A stretch of DNA of 64,000 bases, taken from positions 92,264 through 156,263 of the forward strand of contig JAJFIX010000031.1 in the NCBI GenBank assembly GCA_021774575.1, written 5' to 3'. This stretch comes from Alphaproteobacteria bacterium. GTDB taxonomy: Bacteria > Pseudomonadota > Alphaproteobacteria > UBA6615. Below the pieces are notes generated by a model that searched no databases, was not told the DNA's origin, and saw only the letters and a program-made list of their open reading frames with translations. Both the position numbers and the translations under genes were made by a program. The first letter of the stretch is position 1. Each line of letters begins with the position of its first letter. Shown one piece after another: positions 2,140 to 12,028 of this stretch.

Positions 2140-4959
2140 ATGGCAAGAAACGAGTGCACCTGGCGCACTCGGCTAAATCGGGGGTTTCTGGCGGCCTTTC
2201 TCGTTTTGTTTGTTACAATCTGGTCCGGTCCGGGGTTCACCCAGACGGCACCAGGTGGGGGGCAGCAAGGATCTGGTGAAGCCGAATTTCCTTTAACGGT
2301 CGTTCAACGGCCGTTCGAACAGGAAATACCTGTGCCCCTTCAATTTCGCCAATTTTTTCTGGGCGACCTGTTGGCATTTGATGACGGAACTTCGGTTTTC
2401 GTCCCGCTCAAGCTCGTTACCGATGCATTGCAGTTTGCCATTGAGGTCGACCTCATCCAGGGGCGCGCTCAAGGGTTCTTCATCAACGAAAACAACACTT
2501 TCTTTTTGGACTTGCGAAGCCGCATGGTGTTGGTCAACGGCGTGGCCTCCGCGGCCAGCGCAAACCAGGCCGAGCTTCAATTTGATGACATTTTTGTCGA
2601 TAGCCGGCTCTTCGGGCAATGGTTCGGCGTGGATTTGGTATTTGACCGGCTGAGCCAAGTGTTGCTCGTCGAGCCCCAAGAGGGCGTCGTACTGCCATTG
2701 GAAGCAAGGCTCGAGTTGGAAGCCTTGCGGAACCAGGGCGGCGGCTCAGAGCTGCGGGAGAGATTTGATCTGCAACCGGTGCCTTACCGCCTTATCGCGC
2801 CGCCATCACTCGATTTTTCCTCCAGTTTTTCCCATACAAATGGGGCAAATCAGGAGTTAGCCGGCAACGTTCAAAATAGCGCCAGTTATTCCGCACAGCT
2901 TACCGGCGATCTATTGTTCATGAACGGGCAGCTGTCGATCCAGGGTGGCGAAGGCGACTTGTTGTCTGATGCACGTTTCAAATTGGAGCGAAAGGACAAT
3001 GATCGCCGGTTGTTTTCCGGTGTTGAATATGTTGGGCCGCTGCGGCTGTCCGAATTCGCCATTGGCGACGTGTTCACGCCGCAAGTGCCCTTTATCGCCG
3101 GCCAACGCGAGGGGCAAGGAATTGCAATCTCTTCGTTCCCGTTAAACAGTCCGACGGATTTTGACTTACAAACATTTCGTGGAGAGCTGCCGTTTGGCTG
3201 GGAGGTTGAGCTTTTTCGTAACGATACTTTCTTGGATTTTAGAACCAGCGACCCCGCCGGGCGATACGAATTTATCGATGTATCACTTGGGTTTGGTCAG
3301 AATGATTTCCGGTTTGAGTTTTTTGGCCCCCAGGGGCAGCGCCGGACCGAAACGATAAGCGTCCCCGTCGGCCCAGGCGCTTTGAAGCCCGGCGAGGAGT
3401 TTTTCCGCGCTGGTTTGGTCCAGGAAAACACACGGGTCCTTCCATTCATTCAGGATGGCGACGACCGACGGATGCGGTATTCCATCAATTATGAACGGGG
3501 TATCACACGCGAAATTTCGCTGGTAATGAACGGGTCGAGTTTATCCCTCGGGGATGACGGTCGCCATTCCTACTTTGGTGCCGGTATACGCACATCCCTT
3601 GGCAATTTGACCGTGCTGCCGGACACATTTTTGCGCCTTGACTGGGTCAAGGATCTAAATAGCGGCATGGGCGGGATCATCGGGCTGCAATCGACCGTTC
3701 GCGGTATCGATATTACCGCCCAGCATGAGAGCTATCACAGCTTTGACTCCGAAGCGACGGGCGGTATCAGTACAACCAGCAGAGTTGAGAAAAGGACGTC
3801 TCTCAGGGGCGATGGTGTGTTGCCGCTATTCGGATCTCTGCCGGATATTGGTTTCATAATTTCGGCCAATGAGACCCGGATCGAATCCGGTCTCATTAAT
3901 ACCAGCTACAATTTGCGTCTTTCCTCTACGGTTAAAGACATCGGCCTCACAAACCAGGTTGGGTGGGCGCTGCAGCGCGGCGTCGTCACGAATCCCGAGA
4001 CCCGAATAGATGGCGAATTTACCGCGCGCACGAACCTAGACAACGGACGTTTCATTGCCGCGACGCCACTGACCGATGTCAGGGTGCGGGCAACCCTGGA
4101 TTATGATATTCAGCCGGAAAAGCAGCTAACCGGTTTTGCTGTCTCCACGGAGGGGCTCTTGCCTCACGGCGTTGCGGCCCGGCTGGATATCACCAGAAAT
4201 TTGGGTAGCAGCACGTCGACAAATATTGCGCCGAGCTTGAGCAAAAATTTCGAGCGTTTTTCATTGGGGCTTAGCGGAAATTTTGCCAATAGCGGTGATT
4301 TTTCCCTGGGCGCATCTTTGTCGCTGGGCGCCTTCCGTGAGCCGCGCTCGGGCCGTATCATTACTGAACCGGTTTCCGTCGGCGGTCGGGGTGTTGTTTC
4401 GATCCGCGCCTTTATCGATGTGAATGGCAACGGTGTATACGATGCGGGCGAAGTTCCGCTGCCGGGCATTAAGTTCCGCGACGCCGAGTTTGAGGATGTC
4501 GAGACAGATGAGCGCGGGCTTGCACTGGCCTCGAACCTAACCGCGTTTTCGCGTAACGTCGTTGAAATTGATCGCCGATCAATCGGTGACCCCTTCATCC
4601 AACCCAAAACTTTTGGCGTTGAAATATTGCCACGTCCGGGCGTCGTCGTCGAAATTGATTTTCCGTTCCAGATGATCGGCGAAGTCGATGGTTTCATCCT
4701 GCTGCGCGAGGGGGGTGTCTTGCGGCCGGTGGCAGATCTTGCTTTACAGCTTAGAAACGAAGCTGGGGACGTGGTGAAGGAAATACGTTCAACATTTGAC
4801 GGATTCTATTTATTCACCGATGTTTTCCCGGGGAAATACACGGTTGAAATTCCGTTGGAGGCGCTCCGAGGGCAGAGTTTTGGGCCGCCAACTCCGCTAT
4901 CGATCGAAATTACCGGTGAAGGCGAAATTCTCTCAGGAGTCGACATAGTATTGAACTAG
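2140..4959 (+). CDS. Usher-like outer-membrane beta-barrel protein with SdrB-like and regulatory-like C-terminal domains
   Basis: A 939-residue protein that reads as a divergent fimbrial usher. Residues 1-36 are a signal peptide (basic start, FLAAFLVLFVTIW core). Residues about 60-185 form an N-terminal domain with a stalk-like pattern (VFVPLKLVTDAL, RMVLVNG). From about 220 to 740 the sequence alternates like beta-barrel strands. About residues 350-415 match the usher plug pattern (WEVELFRND, YEFIDVSLGFGQNDFRFEFF, then GQRRTETISVPV). The C-terminus adds an SdrB-like segment at about 757-771 (FIDVNGNGVYDAGEVPLPG) and a carboxypeptidase-regulatory-like fold at about 847-920 (DGFYLFTDVFPGKYTVEI). 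Ushers move chaperone-bound subunits across the outer membrane, and the gene is followed by candidate subunits and a PapD-like chaperone. The usher assignment rests on pattern and context. Confidence 0.75.
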   Translation: MARNECTWRTRLNRGFLAAFLVLFVTIWSGPGFTQTAPGGGQQGSGEAEFPLTVVQRPFEQEIPVPLQFRQFFLGDLLAFDDGTSVFVPLKLVTDALQFAIEVDLIQGRAQGFFINENNTFFLDLRSRMVLVNGVASAASANQAELQFDDIFVDSRLFGQWFGVDLVFDRLSQVLLVEPQEGVVLPLEARLELEALRNQGGGSELRERFDLQPVPYRLIAPPSLDFSSSFSHTNGANQELAGNVQNSASYSAQLTGDLLFMNGQLSIQGGEGDLLSDARFKLERKDNDRRLFSGVEYVGPLRLSEFAIGDVFTPQVPFIAGQREGQGIAISSFPLNSPTDFDLQTFRGELPFGWEVELFRNDTFLDFRTSDPAGRYEFIDVSLGFGQNDFRFEFFGPQGQRRTETISVPVGPGALKPGEEFFRAGLVQENTRVLPFIQDGDDRRMRYSINYERGITREISLVMNGSSLSLGDDGRHSYFGAGIRTSLGNLTVLPDTFLRLDWVKDLNSGMGGIIGLQSTVRGIDITAQHESYHSFDSEATGGISTTSRVEKRTSLRGDGVLPLFGSLPDIGFIISANETRIESGLINTSYNLRLSSTVKDIGLTNQVGWALQRGVVTNPETRIDGEFTARTNLDNGRFIAATPLTDVRVRATLDYDIQPEKQLTGFAVSTEGLLPHGVAARLDITRNLGSSTSTNIAPSLSKNFERFSLGLSGNFANSGDFSLGASLSLGAFREPRSGRIITEPVSVGGRGVVSIRAFIDVNGNGVYDAGEVPLPGIKFRDAEFEDVETDERGLALASNLTAFSRNVVEIDRRSIGDPFIQPKTFGVEILPRPGVVVEIDFPFQMIGEVDGFILLREGGVLRPVADLALQLRNEAGDVVKEIRSTFDGFYLFTDVFPGKYTVEIPLEALRGQSFGPPTPLSIEITGEGEILSGVDIVLN

Positions 4960-5289
4960 TGTATTGAACCACGGCAATGAACGATGGCATCCAACGTGCC
5001 TGATGCCGCAATTGCAGCGGTACGATGTTGTTCATTTTTTGTTAATAATTTTTATATTAATATTGCCTTTGCAAGGACAACCCACCCGTTGCCTTGCATA
5101 GTTTTGGTGTCTGAATATTGTCGAAGGCCGAGAATGCGCCATCTAATTAGGTTGACGAAGCTCGGCGAGGGCCGATAACCTGCAAACAATGGCGTTGTTG
5201 CTTTGGCAAGCTAGGCGACCAATATTCGTAGCATTTGACTGGCCCGGTATTTTGGTGTGTTGGCAAATACCGATTTTGGAGTTTTCTGG
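4960..5289 (+). other. 330-bp gap between usher-like and first DUF4402 gene
   Basis: No gene supported. It contains a strongly AT-rich tract (about 5033-5070) that could carry a promoter for the downstream subunit and chaperone genes. I see no clear -35/-10 pair and no terminator. Confidence 0.4.
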
Positions 5290-5856
5290 ATGCGTATTTA
5301 CGGCCAGCTTCAGTTAAAACGGGAGCCGAGCTTTTTCCGGATTTTGCCATGTTTCCAGCTTGGTATTTTTTCGCTGCTCATTGTGTGCTGCCTGGTGTTG
5401 TCGGCGGTAATCCCTGCAGTCTCGCAAGTCGATTCTCCGATAATTGATATTTCGATTAGAATTATTCGGCCTATTAGCATCCGCCCGACCTCGGATCTTC
5501 AATTTGGCGAAATTTTCCCCGCTAACGGCGCCAGCGAAGTCACTATTTCACCAAATTCGACCGTCGCCTCGAGTGGATTGGCAACTTTCTTAGGCCCATT
5601 TCAGTCCGCGACATTTATAATTTCGGGCGAACCTGGATTTGGCTTCACGGTTACCATTCCCAGCGAGCCGTTGGATATTTTTTCCGGCATAAATAAGATG
5701 ACTGTTACCGGATGGACGAAAAACCTTCCGGACAGAAGTATCCTGCCGGACGGGGGATCGGTGACACTAAATGTGGGGGCGACGCTTGCTGTAGATGCAG
5801 TGCAGCCCCCAGGAACCTATATGGGTGCATTCCAAGTCTCGGTCGCCTATGAATAG
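5290..5856 (+). CDS. DUF4402 secreted protein, candidate surface subunit (first of three)
   Basis: A 188-residue protein with a long signal peptide (basic start, then GIFSLLIVCCLVLSAV, cleavage near AVSQ). The rest is one DUF4402 domain: an N-terminal strand (DISIRIIRPISIRPTSDL), LQFGEI, a central FIISGEPGFGFTVTIP strand pair, and the family ending LNVGATLAVDAVQPPGTYMG. The domain looks like an all-beta, pilin-like fold. I chose ATG 5290 because GGAG lies eight bases upstream; an in-frame GTG at 5257 has no such site. It is followed directly, with overlap, by a second DUF4402 gene and a PapD-like chaperone, so it is probably a chaperone client exported through the usher-like barrel. Its biological role is unknown. 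Confidence 0.8.
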   Translation: MRIYGQLQLKREPSFFRILPCFQLGIFSLLIVCCLVLSAVIPAVSQVDSPIIDISIRIIRPISIRPTSDLQFGEIFPANGASEVTISPNSTVASSGLATFLGPFQSATFIISGEPGFGFTVTIPSEPLDIFSGINKMTVTGWTKNLPDRSILPDGGSVTLNVGATLAVDAVQPPGTYMGAFQVSVAYE

Positions 5857-6415
5857 GAAAGTGCGGTTTCCAATGATCCAGCATGAACATAATCGACAGG
5901 CCGATTTTGGTGCATTCGGAGGCGGCGCTGGCTGGTGTCGTTCATGGTCGCGAAGTGTCGCCCTATTAGCCTTTTTGGTTGGTTCTTTTTTCGTTGGGGA
6001 GGCTGCCTTTTCCCCGGCTATGGCGCAATTTACGATCAGCCAAGTTAAGAATTTACAATTTGGCAATGTCATCGTCGGTGATGCGGCGGGATCCGTGACC
6101 GTGCCGTCGGTGGGGCCGGCGATCGCCACATCAGGTCTGTTCTTGCGAGGCCCCGAACAACCGGCAGAATTTCAACTGGCCGGCCCTGTCGGAACAACGT
6201 TTTTTATTATTCTTCCGGCGACGGCTAGCGTGAGCAGTGGTTTTGAAAGCATGTTAATCCGCGATTTCGAAGCGAGTATTGAACGTGGCACGACGACGGG
6301 GGCGGCCAATCCGATTTTAATTAAGATCGGCGCGACGATCGATATCGCTCAAAACGAGATACCCAATGTCTATAACGGTACATTTATGTTTACCGTGCAG
6401 GAAAATCAGAATTGA
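5849..6415 (+). CDS. DUF4402 secreted protein lacking the first strand (second of three)
   Basis: A 188-residue protein overlapping the previous stop codon by eight bases (ATGAATAG), which suggests translational coupling. ATG 5873 is an alternative start. A long N-region precedes the hydrophobic core (VALLAFLVGSFFVGEAAF), with cleavage at AMA-Q. The mature domain begins almost at once with FTISQVKNLQFGNV, so the N-terminal beta-strand extension seen in the other two DUF4402 proteins is short or missing. The rest is typical: GTTFFIILP and IKIGATIDIAQNEIPNVYNG. In known chaperone-usher fimbriae, a subunit without an N-terminal donor strand sits at the tip. That could apply here, but it is inference. 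Confidence 0.75.
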   Translation: MNRKVRFPMIQHEHNRQADFGAFGGGAGWCRSWSRSVALLAFLVGSFFVGEAAFSPAMAQFTISQVKNLQFGNVIVGDAAGSVTVPSVGPAIATSGLFLRGPEQPAEFQLAGPVGTTFFIILPATASVSSGFESMLIRDFEASIERGTTTGAANPILIKIGATIDIAQNEIPNVYNGTFMFTVQENQN

Positions 6416-6483
6416 ACAGAGCTATGATACATTTAAAACTGTTACGCATTATCGTTAAAACCATTCAGTTATTGGGAGTTATC

Positions 6484-7404
6484 ATGAACTACCGCGCACC
6501 GGCTAATTTATTGCCACGTGGCTCTGCGGCCTTCGTCGCAATCGCTATCGGACTTGCATTCCTATTCGGTGGTGCAAGCGTATCGCTGGCTCAAACGCCG
6601 CTGAGGGACGGATTAGCGGCGGGACCAGTCGTGTCGCCGACACGGTTGGTGCTTGAGGGTAGAGAACGATCAGGGTCTTTTTTGGTCGCAAATACCAGTA
6701 CGGTGCCGATCACCTATCGTGTGGAGTTTACCAATCAGCGGATGCTGGAAGACGGGTCTTTTGAGCAGTTTAATCTGCCGCGTCCCGACGAGAAAGTGCT
6801 TATTAATGAATCGACCCGGCAGCGTTTGGTTCTATTCTCTCCGCGCCAGTTCAGTTTGCAGCCCAATCAAGTTCAAGTTGTCAGATTACAAACCCGTAAG
6901 CCCTCGGATTTACCACCCGGAGAATATCGGTCGCATCTTGTTTTTTCGGCTGTGCCACCGGCCGATACGGGCCGGATATTAGACGACGGCGGTGATAATG
7001 AGGGAATTGAAATTCAGTTGATTCCAATCAAAGGTGTATCCGTGCCGATCATTGTGCGCCACGGTAACGTGACCGGAGGCGTATCGTTTAGTGATGTAAC
7101 GGTGACAGCCGCCGCCGACAATCCGGAGGCACGAGTGGTTAACCTGCGGATGAACCGTTCCGGCGGCGCATCTGTATATGGTGATATGACCATCAACTAT
7201 GTTGATGGATCCGGGCAGCCGCAGGAAGTGGGTGTCGTCAGAGGCATTGCCGTCTATACCCCTAATGCCAGCAGGACAGTCTCGGTCGCGCTCCAATTTC
7301 CCGAAGGCGTCGTGCCGCCAAGCGGGTCCTTGCAAATACGATACGCAACGCCCCCCAGCTCGGGAAATGAGGAGATGGCGACGGCATCTATCCCTATCCG
7401 GTAA
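6484..7404 (+). CDS. PapD-like periplasmic fimbrial chaperone
   Basis: A 306-residue protein with a signal peptide (AFVAIAIGLAFLFGGASVSLAQ) and a two-domain immunoglobulin-like chaperone pattern. The N-terminal domain starts VVSPTRLVLEGRERSGSFLV and continues with NTSTVPITYRVEF and RLVLFSPRQFSLQPNQVQVV, matching the PapD motif before the G1 strand. LPPGEYRSHLVF and IPIKGVSVPIIVRHG follow as the interdomain part. The start at ATG 6484 has GGGAG six bases upstream; the reading frame extends to TTG 6412 without a ribosome site. It would hold DUF4402 subunits soluble in the periplasm and deliver them to the usher-like protein. It comes 68 bases after the second DUF4402 gene and ends at a strong terminator. 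Confidence 0.8.
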   Translation: MNYRAPANLLPRGSAAFVAIAIGLAFLFGGASVSLAQTPLRDGLAAGPVVSPTRLVLEGRERSGSFLVANTSTVPITYRVEFTNQRMLEDGSFEQFNLPRPDEKVLINESTRQRLVLFSPRQFSLQPNQVQVVRLQTRKPSDLPPGEYRSHLVFSAVPPADTGRILDDGGDNEGIEIQLIPIKGVSVPIIVRHGNVTGGVSFSDVTVTAAADNPEARVVNLRMNRSGGASVYGDMTINYVDGSGQPQEVGVVRGIAVYTPNASRTVSVALQFPEGVVPPSGSLQIRYATPPSSGNEEMATASIPIR

Positions 7405-7423
7405 TTTCAATTTAGAAAATGTT

Positions 7424-7457
7424 GCGGGTGGTGGAATCTCCGCCACCCCTTTTTTTT
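7424..7457 (+). terminator. Rho-independent terminator after the chaperone gene
   Basis: GGGTGGTGG (7426-7434), a five-base loop, CCGCCACCC (7440-7448) and a run of eight T. The stem is nine base pairs with one G-T wobble. It separates the usher/chaperone unit from the third DUF4402 gene. Confidence 0.85.
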
Positions 7458-7688
7458 CGTGAAGTCGCTCGACTAAAATTCGACTGTTTATCTAGAAACA
7501 ATATCAATTTTTGATCACAAATAGATTTATCAAATACCTTAATTCCTTATTATTCAATTTTTGAGACACTCACCATATGAACAGCCCTGGCATGTGCTGA
7601 TAAAATTGAACGGCATATTAAGTCTGATTTGAATTTCAAAACGGATTTTAGCGCTATTGGGTCTTCGGAATCCGAAAGGGGATCAAAA

Positions 7689-8198
7689 ATGTTGGTGTTT
7701 GATGCGAAAATAAAATCAGTATTTCTCGTTATAGCTGGATTGGGTCTTGCCTCGGGGGCAGCGCATGCTGTCGACGGAGGGGGCAGCGCCAAGGTAAATG
7801 TTGTCAGTCCGCTAAGTATTACCCAGTCCCAGGAACTAAATTTCGGCATTGTTGCACCCGGCGTTTCGACCGGTACTGTTGCTGTTGCAGTTGGGGGGGC
7901 GGTAACCCAAGGAAATACAGCCGTTTATTTTACCGGCAGTGGTGCCCAAAATGGCGCGTTTGACATTGTTGGTGATCAAAATCGGCAATACTCAATCGCC
8001 CTGCCGGCCTCGGCAAGTTTGACCGGTGGCGGCAATCCGATCTTAGTGGATGGATTTATCTCAGATCCAGCGGTGACCGGATTACTGGATATCAATGGCC
8101 TTCAGGAAGTACGCGTCGGTGCGACCCTGCACCTTCCGTCAGGGCAAGCGACAGGTATTTACACCGGTAGTTATACGGTTACCGTTCTGTATCAATAA
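7689..8198 (+). CDS. DUF4402 secreted protein, candidate major subunit (third of three)
   Basis: A 169-residue protein with a signal peptide ending GAAHA and a compact, canonical DUF4402 domain: SAKVNVVSPLSITQSQELNFG, a glycine-rich GVSTGTVAVAVGGAV turn, QYSIALPASASLTGGG, and VGATLHLPSGQATGIYTG near the end. ATG 7689 has AGGGG seven bases upstream; the frame extends to TTG 7629 without support. It is the most regular of the three DUF4402 proteins and lies alone between two strong terminators, with an AT-rich 230-base region in front. Separate expression would fit an abundant main subunit, but no expression data exist. Confidence 0.8.
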   Translation: MLVFDAKIKSVFLVIAGLGLASGAAHAVDGGGSAKVNVVSPLSITQSQELNFGIVAPGVSTGTVAVAVGGAVTQGNTAVYFTGSGAQNGAFDIVGDQNRQYSIALPASASLTGGGNPILVDGFISDPAVTGLLDINGLQEVRVGATLHLPSGQATGIYTGSYTVTVLYQ

Positions 8199-8242
8199 AT
8201 GTGGCGCAGTTCATTTCCTGATTAAGCGGCAAGTCAACTTAC

Positions 8243-8274
8243 ATACCCAGGGAAAATGCCCTGGGTATTTTTTT
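8243..8274 (+). terminator. Rho-independent terminator after third DUF4402 gene
   Basis: Perfect ten-base stem ATACCCAGGG (8243-8252) and CCCTGGGTAT (8259-8268) around AAAATG, followed by a T run to 8274. It is the strongest terminator in the window and marks the end of the surface locus. Confidence 0.92.
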
Positions 8275-8291: not shown

Positions 8292-9068
8292 ATGCTGATA
8301 GGGCGACTCCTTGCCGTCTGTTCTAAATATCGGTTTATGATTTCCGCCGATCTTCAAACTAAATCGCCGTATTCCAAATTTCAATTTGGAGTGGATCTTC
8401 ACCGAACGAAACGGCGAAAATCTATTTCAATTCAGGTGAGGGGCGGCGGTGTACGGGTGCTGGCGCCCCATCGGGTGCCGAGCGAAGAAATCGAAGCCCT
8501 GCTACATGCAAAATTGACCTGGATTGAGCGTAAATTACGCGAGCAAGAGGTGATCAGAGAGCGAGCGCCCCGCAGCTATGTTGACGGCGCCCGGTGGCCG
8601 TTCCTTGGCGGAGAAATTGTGCTCGCAATTGGTCATGGGAGAGCCGTTGATCCAACGCTTCAGGGGAATTGCTTAACTGTCTCCATACCGTCCCGAGGCA
8701 AACATGCGCCCCACGAGGCCGCCGTGCGGCATCAATTGGAGATGTGGCTGCGCGAGCAGGCGCGGATCCGACTTGTGGATTTTACGCAGAAGCATTCGAA
8801 GCGAATTGGCAGATCGCCGAAGTCGATTATGCTCAAAACCTATAAGGCGCGCTGGGGCAGTTGCTCGGCCAGCGGAAATATTACTTACGACTGGCGATTG
8901 GTCATGGCCCCATTGTCGGTCATTAATTATGTCGCGGCCCATGAGGTTGCTCATCTACAGCATCTTGACCATTCGAAAAAATTTTGGTCATGCGTTGACG
9001 AACTTTGTCCGGATAATCGTAAGGCAAAGACATGGCTTCGTCGCTATGGAGCAACCCTCAACATGTAA
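8292..9068 (+). CDS. YgjP-type (DUF45) zinc metallopeptidase family protein
   Basis: A 258-residue protein of the YgjP/DUF45 family, related to SprT and M48 metallopeptidases. After the family's N-terminal region (RKSISIQVRGGGVRVLAP) comes the KARWGSCSASGNITYDWRL motif and the zinc site HEVAHLQHLDH, with His217, Glu218, His221 and a third candidate ligand His227. No signal peptide is convincing, so it is likely cytoplasmic. The start is uncertain: ATG 8292 and ATG 8337 are both possible and neither has a good ribosome site. It stands alone after the terminator of the surface locus. Confidence 0.8.
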   Translation: MLIGRLLAVCSKYRFMISADLQTKSPYSKFQFGVDLHRTKRRKSISIQVRGGGVRVLAPHRVPSEEIEALLHAKLTWIERKLREQEVIRERAPRSYVDGARWPFLGGEIVLAIGHGRAVDPTLQGNCLTVSIPSRGKHAPHEAAVRHQLEMWLREQARIRLVDFTQKHSKRIGRSPKSIMLKTYKARWGSCSASGNITYDWRLVMAPLSVINYVAAHEVAHLQHLDHSKKFWSCVDELCPDNRKAKTWLRRYGATLNM

Positions 9069-9106: not shown

Positions 9107-10420
9107 CTAGCCTGCGTTACGGATCATCAGCTCGGGCAGCAAAAGCGAGATTTGTGGGAACAGCACCAGCAACAGTAGGGCAACACCCATGGCCAACCAG
9201 AAGGGCAATATGCCTTTGAAAATATCGTTCATTGGCACGTCCTCGGCAATCGACTTCACGACAAAAACATTAATCCCGACAGGCGGGCTAATCAGTCCCA
9301 TTTCAAGGACGATGACCATCAAAACGCCGTACCAAATCATATCAAAACCATAGGATCGTAAGACCGGCTCCAATAGCGGGATTGTCAGCACGAGGATGGC
9401 AAATCCTTCCATGAAGGTGCCGAGGAACACCAAGAAGATAAGAACGATTGCCAGCAGACCATATTTGCCAACGTCGAGGGCGATCAGCAAGTTCATTAGC
9501 GCATTTGGAATGCCCGACAACTCGATAAACGGCGTAAATACGAAGGCGCCGATGAGGATCAAAAACGTTGTCGCCGTCGAACGGAGCGTGTTCAACAACG
9601 CCTCGAAAAAATTGGAAAATGTAAGCGAGCGCCGGCCGATGGCAAAAATAAACGCCAGTATGCAGCCAATGCCGGCGGCCTCGGTGGCTGAATAAACGCC
9701 GAGATAGATACCACCGATTGTCGCCACAATGATGCTCAGAATGGGAATTGCCCGGACCAAAGCCATCCCGCGTTGGCCGTAGCTCATACGAATGGGGGCA
9801 GGGGGCCCCAGCTCCGGATTGATAAACGTCACAATGTAAATGACGACGATAAAGAGGAAGGCCAGCATGAGGCCAGGCAAAACACCGGCGATGAAAAGCT
9901 GCCCAATCGAGCTTTCGGTAAGAATGGCATAGACGACAAATCCCGCCGACGGCGGAATGAGAATACCGAGGGTGCCACCAGCGGCAATCGCGCCCGTTGC
10001 CAACTTATTGGAATATTTAAAGCGCTGCATTTCCGGCAAAGAAACTTTACCCATGGTGAGGGCCGAAGCCAATGATGACCCCGATAACGCGGAAAAACCG
10101 GCGCAGCCGATGATAGTCGCCGATGCCAATCCGCCGCGAAAATGGCCAACCCAGGCGTAAGCGGCGTCATATAAATCCCTACTCATTCGCGAGACCCCGG
10201 CCAAATTTCCCATCAACACGAAGAGGGGCAGGATAGAGAGAGATATTATGGTCGTGGTATCAAACGAATGGGCGCCCAGTGAGGGAATTGCGCCGCGTGG
10301 CCGGATAATCCAATGGCCGACAAACCCGACAAGCATCATTGAGGTCGCAACTGGCATCCGGAGCGCCAACAAAACCATAAGGACTGCCAGTCCAAGAAGG
10401 CCGATTTCAATATTAGACAT
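9107..10420 (-). CDS. dctM: TRAP transporter large membrane subunit DctM
   Basis: 437 residues, almost wholly hydrophobic, matching the large permease of tripartite ATP-independent periplasmic transporters, which typically have 12 or more helices. Recognisable family features include LFVLMGNLAGVSRMSRDLYD near residue 65, GGTLGILIPPSAGFV, and a C-terminal EMGLISPPVGINVFVVK. It forms the ion-coupled channel that receives substrate from the binding protein. It is the last gene of dctP-dctQ-dctM, starting six bases after the dctQ stop with no clear ribosome site, so coupling is likely. Confidence 0.93.
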   Translation of the reverse strand: MSNIEIGLLGLAVLMVLLALRMPVATSMMLVGFVGHWIIRPRGAIPSLGAHSFDTTTIISLSILPLFVLMGNLAGVSRMSRDLYDAAYAWVGHFRGGLASATIIGCAGFSALSGSSLASALTMGKVSLPEMQRFKYSNKLATGAIAAGGTLGILIPPSAGFVVYAILTESSIGQLFIAGVLPGLMLAFLFIVVIYIVTFINPELGPPAPIRMSYGQRGMALVRAIPILSIIVATIGGIYLGVYSATEAAGIGCILAFIFAIGRRSLTFSNFFEALLNTLRSTATTFLILIGAFVFTPFIELSGIPNALMNLLIALDVGKYGLLAIVLIFLVFLGTFMEGFAILVLTIPLLEPVLRSYGFDMIWYGVLMVIVLEMGLISPPVGINVFVVKSIAEDVPMNDIFKGILPFWLAMGVALLLLVLFPQISLLLPELMIRNAG

Positions 10421-10425
10421 GAGGA

Positions 10426-10959
10426 TTAGCTAGACTTCTCGCTGGGGTCGACATCTTGCCAAAAGTGAGCAAGACCGACGATCAATTCAACGACCAGAAC
10501 CAGTCCATAGAGGGTAAACCCAAAGGCCATAAAATAGTAAAATGGCGCATGGGCAATTCCCAAGGTGGTCGTAAGATACGCACAGAGAATGCCGCACATA
10601 CCATTCCTGATCAGCGCGTAGACGGCAAATGCGATAATTATAATGCCCAACACACGGACCAGAACATCGGTCCAGCGCGTCACCCGGCGCCCGCCGACCA
10701 TGCCAAGCACATCGACGGCGACATGGGCCCCGACACGCCCACCATAGGCCAACGAGCAGGCCACGATGACCGATAGGGCAAGGCTTAGGATGTCGTCGAC
10801 CCCACGAATAGGGTCGTTCATGACATAGCGGAAAAAGACGCCAACGCCGGTGAGAGCAACGAGGCCCGCCAAGACGATGGCGCCGACGGCAGCAACCAGC
10901 CCAGTCGCGTAATCGGTAATAGCGAGTACGCGGCTGGGCTTTTGGGTCGGATTAGACAC
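10426..10959 (-). CDS. dctQ: TRAP transporter small membrane subunit DctQ
   Basis: 177 residues with four predicted membrane helices, the size and layout of DctQ proteins. The loop FFRYVMNDPIRGVDDI carries the family pattern (RYVxN...W/V-xE/D). The start is GTG 10959, 34 bases after the dctP stop. It pairs with the large subunit in the inner membrane. The middle position in a dctP-dctQ-dctM order supports the call. Confidence 0.88.
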   Translation of the reverse strand: MSNPTQKPSRVLAITDYATGLVAAVGAIVLAGLVALTGVGVFFRYVMNDPIRGVDDILSLALSVIVACSLAYGGRVGAHVAVDVLGMVGGRRVTRWTDVLVRVLGIIIIAFAVYALIRNGMCGILCAYLTTTLGIAHAPFYYFMAFGFTLYGLVLVVELIVGLAHFWQDVDPSEKSS

Positions 10960-10993
10960 GATATATAACGACTAGCAATCGCAAACCTTCAAG

Positions 10994-12028
10994 TTAGTTG
11001 GAGCTGACGCCCATCAGATTGAACAGGTTTTCGCCCCGGAACTGCAGGGACGAAGACGATTGCGACGTGTCGAGATTTTGCTGCAAGAAGGCATTGACGA
11101 TCGGCTGCATGGTGGCCTGCCAACTGGCTTTTTCAGCGTCGGAAAGTTTGATCTCCTCAACGCCGTTGTCGATGGCAAAGGCAACACTGCCGAGGCCAGC
11201 CCGGTCATATGCACGACCGCCGAGCAGACTCAACTCCCGTCCGGAAGCTTCGTTGATCCATCCTTGTTCTTGAGGTGTCAGATCGTCAAAGACGTCTTGG
11301 TTCATCAACAAGAAGATACCGGAAATCGAAACCGGCAGATTGGTCGTCACAAATTCAGCCGGCTCATGCAGTGCAAAGGAGCGAATTGACGAGGCACCAA
11401 TGTGAATGCCATCAATTGTGTCATTGGTCAGCATCTCGTGGACCACACCAACACCGGTTGCAATGGCGGTGGCGCCCAAGGCTTCAATATAAGGAATATC
11501 TTGAGCCGACGTGACGCGGATTTTCATTCCCTGAAGATCGGCCATGGACCGAACGGGACGTTTAGTCAAAAGAACCTTTTGATCAATACCCCAGAGAGCG
11601 AGAATTTTCGCATTATACTCTGTCTGGATGACGTCCATGGCATTCCACATCCGGTTCGTCGCGTCTTCCGCGCTGTCGGACATGCCGGGAACGGTCATCA
11701 TGTTGGAGAATGGAAACACCGGGCCGGTATAGCCGGGCAGGCCAAACGCGATATCCGAGACACCTTGAATCAATGCGCCATATTGCGGCGGGCCGCCTTG
11801 AACGAGTGAGCCACCGAAATGAACGTTAACGGTCAACTGACCGCCGCTGACTTCTGCGAGCTTCTCGATGAACGGCTGAACGACAGCGGCATTCATCGGA
11901 TGCCTGTCACCAACGAAGTAAGATAGTTGCAGTTCTGTTTGCGCACTTGCCTGACCGGCAAAGCCCATGCTGGCGGCCAGTGTCGCGGCAGCCAATACGC
12001 TCTTTGAAAAAAGTTGGTATTTACCCAT
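10994..12028 (-). CDS. dctP: TRAP transporter periplasmic substrate-binding protein DctP
   Basis: 344 residues with a signal peptide cut at ASA-Q. The mature protein follows the DctP family: LQLSYFVGDRHPMN at the start, KLAEVSGGQLTVNVHFGGSL, and the substrate-binding strand region MKIRVTSAQDIPYIEALGA with its arginine. Its substrate cannot be read from sequence; family members mostly bind organic acids. A strong AGGGAGGAA ribosome site precedes ATG 12028, in contrast to the weak sites of dctQ and dctM, which fits the usual excess of binding protein. Confidence 0.9.
   Translation of the reverse strand: MGKYQLFSKSVLAAATLAASMGFAGQASAQTELQLSYFVGDRHPMNAAVVQPFIEKLAEVSGGQLTVNVHFGGSLVQGGPPQYGALIQGVSDIAFGLPGYTGPVFPFSNMMTVPGMSDSAEDATNRMWNAMDVIQTEYNAKILALWGIDQKVLLTKRPVRSMADLQGMKIRVTSAQDIPYIEALGATAIATGVGVVHEMLTNDTIDGIHIGASSIRSFALHEPAEFVTTNLPVSISGIFLLMNQDVFDDLTPQEQGWINEASGRELSLLGGRAYDRAGLGSVAFAIDNGVEEIKLSDAEKASWQATMQPIVNAFLQQNLDTSQSSSSLQFRGENLFNLMGVSSN

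Follow-up and report, generated by a model that had tools for sequence, protein, structure and literature searches.

Do a large outer-membrane protein, a PapD-like chaperone and three proteins of the DUF4402 family that are encoded side by side form a chaperone-usher pathway, and are the DUF4402 proteins then its pilins? The question is raised by a locus in a 64,000-nucleotide stretch of an Alphaproteobacteria bacterium genome (UBA6615; assembly GCA_021774575.1, contig JAJFIX010000031.1, positions 92,264 to 156,263 of the forward strand), hereafter the window, in whose numbering all positions are given unless stated otherwise. The locus spans 2140-8198 and includes five intact open reading frames (ORFs), all on the plus strand: the putative usher, the outer-membrane assembly platform (2140-4959, 939 amino acids, with a signal peptide), DUF4402 subunit 1 (5257-5856), DUF4402 subunit 2 (5795-6415), the periplasmic chaperone (6412-7404) and DUF4402 subunit 3 (7629-8198). 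These positions use the first in-frame start codon of each ORF; starts at about 5849 or 5873 for subunit 2, 6484 for the chaperone and 7689 for subunit 3 are likelier, as each precedes a signal peptide. An earlier note on this DNA had recognised the three chaperone-usher roles and let the locus run to 8274; the last gene actually stops at 8198, and the three roles were confirmed, by Pfam for the subunits (DUF4402, three times) and the chaperone (PapD_N) and by structure and profile comparison for the usher. Very probably, the locus is a full operon for a chaperone-usher pilus from a divergent branch, with the DUF4402 proteins as its pilins.

The identity of the 939-residue protein was not evident from curated models. 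The Pfam usher model PF00577 reached 10.8 bits, below its 27.1-bit cut-off, the sole Pfam match above cut-off was SdrD_B at residues 863-904, a weak Cu_amine_oxidN1 match was observed in the N-terminal domain (NTD), and the NCBIfam fimbrial usher model matched residues 784-844 with an E-value of 0.0055, a weak hint only. The failure of PF00577, the SdrD_B match and the public annotation of homologues as carboxypeptidase regulatory-like proteins would favour another type of barrel, such as a polysaccharide exporter or a TonB-type receptor, carrying SdrD-like domains and standing next to DUF4402 genes by accident. Single-sequence searches of the Protein Data Bank (PDB) with the usher and with the chaperone returned nothing useful, the signal in the sequences being too faint for anything short of profile-profile comparison, and a PDB search with the usher profile gave matches dominated by the SdrD-like second C-terminal domain (CTD2).

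The AlphaFold model of the protein, built from an alignment of 70 homologues (mean predicted local distance difference test, pLDDT, 87.8; predicted template modelling score, pTM, 0.74), displays in order an NTD, a 24-strand beta-barrel with a plug, and two small beta domains. The NTD covers residues 61-180 (2320-2679), where the model has strands at 61-179 and the collinear alignment with archaic ushers begins; the barrel covers residues 223-733 (2806-4338), with PapC and FimD pore alignments at 222-734, its strands being counted by DSSP on the model with the plug strands omitted. The plug (residues 343-410, 3166-3369), which is aligned with the archaic usher plug, sits between barrel strands 6 and 7, where ushers carry it, and is the most conserved block of the family (PGWDVELYRN ... 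GRYEF ... YGPQG). The first C-terminal domain (CTD1, residues 740-845, 4357-4674) is delimited by structural and profile alignments and is followed by CTD2 (residues 847-939, 4678-4956), the segment matching SdrD_B and CarboxypepD_reg. When the model was compared with the PDB, Foldseek ranks 1-18 were all FimD or PapC, with full-length ushers among them (E 5e-30 to 5e-13), and the best VIA-align match reached Z 20.1 over 570 residues, placing model residues 211-938 on FimD 131-833; the structural match to ushers foreseen for 2140-4959 was thus recovered as a plugged barrel. Unrelated barrels trailed the ushers, with VIA Z values of at most 14 versus 17-20 and a Foldseek E-value of 7e-6 versus 5e-30. 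Moreover, the usher profile aligned collinearly with archaic ushers across 719 columns (E 2e-20), whereas the reversed profile gave 0.026 and shuffled profiles 0.4 or worse, the archaic profile being made of five alphaproteobacterial ushers found via PF00577, mostly archaic. With 24 strands, a plug, an NTD and two C-terminal domains in the model, ushers outranking all other barrels, and DUF4402, chaperone and usher genes linked in 70 of 80 loci (see below), the idea of another barrel is effectively refuted and deserves hardly any credence. The 939-residue protein is therefore predicted to be a full usher with NTD, plugged barrel, CTD1 and CTD2, and its NTD is expected to receive chaperone-subunit complexes.

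Extra C-terminal domains, with which the protein had been credited, were dropped as a candidate feature: both domains can be aligned with their counterparts in archaic ushers and FimD and so correspond to ordinary CTD1 and CTD2, while the divergent CTD2 triggers the SdrD_B model and hence the database name. Among related ushers, C-terminal tails of 80-420 residues after CTD2 are common (L058, L060, L062, L087, L124, L130 and others); the tails of 51 related ushers were scanned, and nine matched SPOR, five AMIN and one OmpA, all of them domains that bind peptidoglycan or the envelope. An usher anchored to the wall would be out of the ordinary, and the usher in the window carries no such tail. 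A second usher-like gene (L030, G000:C25:206276-208540) lies on the same contig outside the window and is 41% identical over residues 213-844 of the window protein; it has no NTD, no recognisable CTD2 and no chaperone or DUF4402 gene nearby, and is an orphan or degenerate usher.

All three subunits in the window matched PF14352 (DUF4402) above its curated cut-off (E 9e-28, 1e-18 and 1e-26 for subunits 1, 2 and 3), and the model independently matched 66 of the 73 subunits in our alignment, from which subunit 3 was modelled with AlphaFold2 (AF2). Its domain is confident (pLDDT blocks of 90-98) and is preceded by an N-terminal extension without predicted structure. The structural matches were mostly chaperone-usher pilins, namely CsuA/B, Caf1, CfaB, FimG and the PapG pilin domain, with CsuA/B heading the Foldseek list and FimG the VIA list. 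VIA returned Z values of 6-8, a range in which, by the tool's own warning, chance is possible, and the pilin assignment was made on three other grounds: nearly every hit is a pilin, the alignment extends as far as the final residue of both FimG and CsuA/B, and the subunit profile matches that of spore coat U subunits (E 3e-7, with no shuffled profile better than 0.2). The model stops at strand F, the same end as FimG and CsuA/B, which indicates that the G strand is missing, and the DUF4402 proteins are accordingly modelled as pilins with an incomplete immunoglobulin (Ig) fold. In the N-terminal extension (residues 48-58 of subunit 3, 7770-7802), positions 52, 54, 56 and 58 are hydrophobic in 73-96% of up to 73 homologues and positions 51, 53, 55 and 57 in only 7-9%, an alternation that reads as a donor-strand pattern. 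Similarly, subunit 1 has an alternating-hydrophobic N-terminal strand, IIDISIRIIR, ahead of its LxFG motif. Cysteines are absent from the pilin domain in 55 of the 73 subunits. The earlier view that the subunits are DUF4402 proteins rather than known pilins or spore coat U proteins holds as far as the PF14352 match goes and needs amending in that they are remotely related to archaic pilins (spore coat U and CsuA/B), whereas its suggestion that this context offers DUF4402 a function is borne out by fold, donor strand and linkage, which support a fibre subunit. No mention of DUF4402 or PF14352 was found in open-access papers, subscription papers and preprints lying outside that scope.

The chaperone exceeded the PapD_N cut-off narrowly (24.4 versus 23 bits), and its profile matched archaic chaperones with an E-value of 3e-16, the controls for usher, subunit and chaperone comparisons all lying at 0.026 or worse. 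In its G1 strand (residues 199-213, 7006-7050), positions 201, 203, 205, 207, 209, 211 and 213 are hydrophobic in 74-100% of 79 homologues, and the in-between positions in 10-56%, except for the conserved proline 212; this alternation in the sequence, the strand-donating feature anticipated for a PapD-like fold, makes G1 a putative donor strand matching the subunit fold. Pro144 and Asn94 are invariant in 79/79 chaperones, and Pro144 aligns with the archaic proline, a residue invariant across the chaperone superfamily (PMC4654587). On the other hand, Arg89, the hallmark residue that holds the subunit C-terminus in archaic and alternative chaperones (PMC4654587), is replaced at the aligned CsuC column by His175 in 73 of 79 chaperones, as two alignment methods agree. 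An arginine, Arg173, is found in 69 of the 79 on the same strand two residues earlier and so, provided that the strand is regular, points in the same direction; the carboxylate anchor has probably changed from the archaic one, judging from these columns. The position of Tyr282 is aromatic (58 Tyr and 20 Phe of 79) and lies near the aligned archaic tyrosine (CsuC Tyr196), within a weak alignment of domain 2. The genome holds only one chaperone of this family.

Two kinds of subunit were distinguished by the distance from the predicted signal cleavage site to LxFG, which is bimodal at about 7-9 or 21-26 residues. Subunits 1 and 3 of the window are long (about 26 residues in subunit 1), and subunit 2, cleaved by prediction at AMA^Q with nine residues remaining to LxFG, is short, has no donor strand and lies directly ahead of the chaperone gene. 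One long plus one short subunit is the commonest locus type (37 loci), and a long subunit combined with a short or two-domain one was observed in 45 of the 59 loci with at least two subunits. The short subunit lies within 300 bp of the chaperone gene in 41/46 cases and the long one in 34/87. In some relatives two-domain DUF4402 proteins occur instead (L074, L079, L073, L107 and L115), and tip adhesins are two-domain proteins. Lacking a donor strand, a subunit is unable to complete a predecessor, yet it can itself be completed by the strand of the one that follows, and should therefore come first, at the tip. By these patterns subunits 1 and 3 are probable shaft subunits and, by donor-strand logic, subunit 2 is the probable tip subunit; the existence of two kinds of DUF4402 subunit, with a donor strand (shaft) and without it (probable tip), is new.

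The computations establish how usher and subunit fold and are organised into domains, the alternating strand patterns and the conserved linkage of the genes, and from these we infer fibre formation, the identity of the tip and a role in surface adhesion or biofilm. In the periplasm, the PapD-like chaperone would lend its G1 strand to each DUF4402 subunit by donor-strand complementation, the complex would dock on the usher NTD, the plug would swing out of the 24-strand pore, and the N-terminal strand of the next subunit would displace the chaperone strand by donor-strand exchange, so that the fibre would grow through the usher pore, with subunit 2, which can only accept, leaving first as the tip and subunits 1 and 3 building the shaft. 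The product might instead be a capsule-like polyadhesin, a surface mat or a spore-coat-like layer, in the manner of F1 antigen or Myxococcus protein U; in profile comparison the subunits come nearest to the spore coat U family, the window has no large adhesin gene, and many loci hold only one or two small subunits. Nevertheless, the two-domain proteins of several relatives resemble tip adhesins and the existence of two subunit kinds points to an order from tip to shaft, and the assembly chemistry of a polyadhesin would be identical anyway, so that such a product is possible but appears somewhat unlikely relative to a rod-like adhesive pilus.

The distribution of the genes supports a pilus operon with DUF4402 pilins. 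Scanning the collection with the usher protein alone retrieved no relative; a four-sequence usher alignment succeeded, and 80 homologous loci were collected by usher search alone. The chaperone was present in 71 of them, a DUF4402-type protein in 72 and both in 70, most loci lacking partner genes being those with the usher near a contig end. The loci are distributed over alpha-, gamma- and deltaproteobacterial groups, Acidobacteriota, Balneolia and Eisenbacteria. In a phylum sample of 398 genomes, DUF4402 exceeded the cut-off in 11, 10 of which also carry the usher (counted only at >200 bits), and the usher occurred without DUF4402 above cut-off in three; in a class sample of 190 genomes the usher was found in 6/7 genomes with DUF4402. 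Fisher tests of co-occurrence gave p values of 1e-16 (phylum) and 2e-7 (class), with kinship ignored and six of the 11 phylum genomes with DUF4402 belonging to one family. Weak usher-profile matches in about 65 phylum genomes, mostly single-domain SdrD-like or plug pieces of other proteins, were rejected. In the eleventh genome (G424, locus L185), the DUF4402 genes stand next to genes for a chaperone and for an usher that is more divergent still; this usher matched CarboxypepD_reg and did not reach PF00577, and its greater divergence indicates that the ushers of DUF4402 systems form more than one divergent branch. The expectation that DUF4402 genes keep these neighbours thus stands at the level of genomes and for only about half of the individual genes, since 18 of 37 DUF4402 genes adjoin the usher and the others are dispersed in the same genomes.

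Several points weigh against a pilus operon with DUF4402 pilins. Five of the eight DUF4402 genes of the source genome are unlinked to the usher, the division into short and long subunits depends on a simple home-made cleavage rule by which some calls are clearly wrong (L032, for example), the pairing of chaperone with subunit strands and of subunit with subunit is read from sequence pattern, and the fibre and its expression are predictions from the genes. The five solitary genes (L031, L032, L033, L034 and L035) lie on other contigs, far from any chaperone or usher; the donor-strand segment is apparently kept in all five, and such dispersed copies would fit alternative shaft subunits. Another exception to linkage is a genome (G144, locus L175) with a DUF4402 gene, no chaperone or usher gene within 12 kb and no usher match.

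Plasmid homologues are annotated as DUF4402, molecular chaperone and carboxypeptidase-like proteins in conserved gene order, and RefSeq names their ushers carboxypeptidase regulatory-like or SdrD B-like, so that the usher is unrecognised in those annotations. On the Polaromonas plasmids NZ_MG869618.1 (L198) and NC_007950.1 (L199), the module has IS6 transposases in its vicinity and, on JS666, is flanked by an IS6 copy on either side, a setting suggestive of horizontal transfer. Upstream of the usher in the window, an ORF at 1358-1687 (109 amino acids, without a DUF4402 match) begins with what looks like a signal peptide, contains the donor-strand-like stretch LNVTATAAIVSG and is possibly a degenerate subunit. 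Downstream, a YgjP-like metallopeptidase (Pfam; 8292-9068) looks unrelated to the locus, as apparently do three minus-strand genes in 9107-12028 resembling, by eye, a TRAP transporter (large permease, small permease and binding protein).

DUF4402, a family without an assigned role, thereby gains a likely function as a pilin or fibre subunit, and its partner ushers, now labelled carboxypeptidase regulatory-like or hypothetical, are identified. Chaperone-usher pili are extended to many environmental bacteria, including Pseudoalteromonas, Shewanella, Colwellia, Micavibrio, Desulfobacterota, Acidobacteriota and others; surveys relying on PF00577 would miss these systems, and the two-kind subunit pattern allows the initiation of fibres of this type to be tested directly.

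By every feature tested the system is a member of the chaperone-usher superfamily, whose pili are divided in the literature into three groups and six clades (PMC9452303). The archaic systems (sigma; Csu pili of Acinetobacter with CsuA/B, CsuC and CsuD; spore coat U systems) share with it the three roles, collinear usher domains, an N-terminal donor strand followed by an LxFG-type motif in the subunits, a C-terminal motif of the GxYxGxxxVxVxY kind, the invariant chaperone proline and G1 strand donation. As the archaic systems are close relatives of all three components by profile, and subunit and chaperone match them better than classical ones, a plain archaic, Csu-type system has to be considered. 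At equal depth, with three-sequence profiles each, this usher family scored 35-66 against archaic and 23-39 against classical ushers, as compared with 265 between archaic and classical, which on profile scores places it outside both. The archaic hallmarks, Arg at the CsuC Arg89 column and PF05229 subunits with a PF00577 usher, are absent: the anchor column holds His, with Arg two residues earlier on the strand, the usher is missed by PF00577, the subunits are PF14352 and mostly without cysteines, and the source genome gave no match to PF05229 (SCPU) or PF00577. The single-domain subunit without a donor strand and the SPOR or AMIN tails on many relatives' ushers also differ from the archaic pattern, and a plain archaic identity is judged distinctly improbable.

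The classical systems (type 1 FimC/FimD and P pili PapD/PapC) have the 24-strand plugged barrel with NTD, CTD1 and CTD2, which gave the best structural matches, and incomplete Ig pilins; they differ in having little sequence similarity (the FimD single-sequence match has an E-value of 0.009 and covers CTD1 only), in the PapD Lys112-type residue, apparently Pro here, and in the classical pilin cysteines, missing from most subunits. The alternative systems (alpha; ECP with EcpA/EcpB/EcpC, and CFA/I) share the general chaperone fold, with EcpE matching the chaperone profile at E 2e-7, whereas EcpC matches the usher in a short CTD piece only (E 0.07) and the hallmark Arg89 is not at the aligned chaperone column. 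On this comparison we consider it likely that the locus represents a further chaperone-usher branch beyond the classical, alternative and archaic ones, present in multiple phyla, with two kinds of DUF4402 pilin (shaft and single-domain tip) and extra shaft subunits scattered in the genome, and overlooked so far because its ushers escape the usher models.

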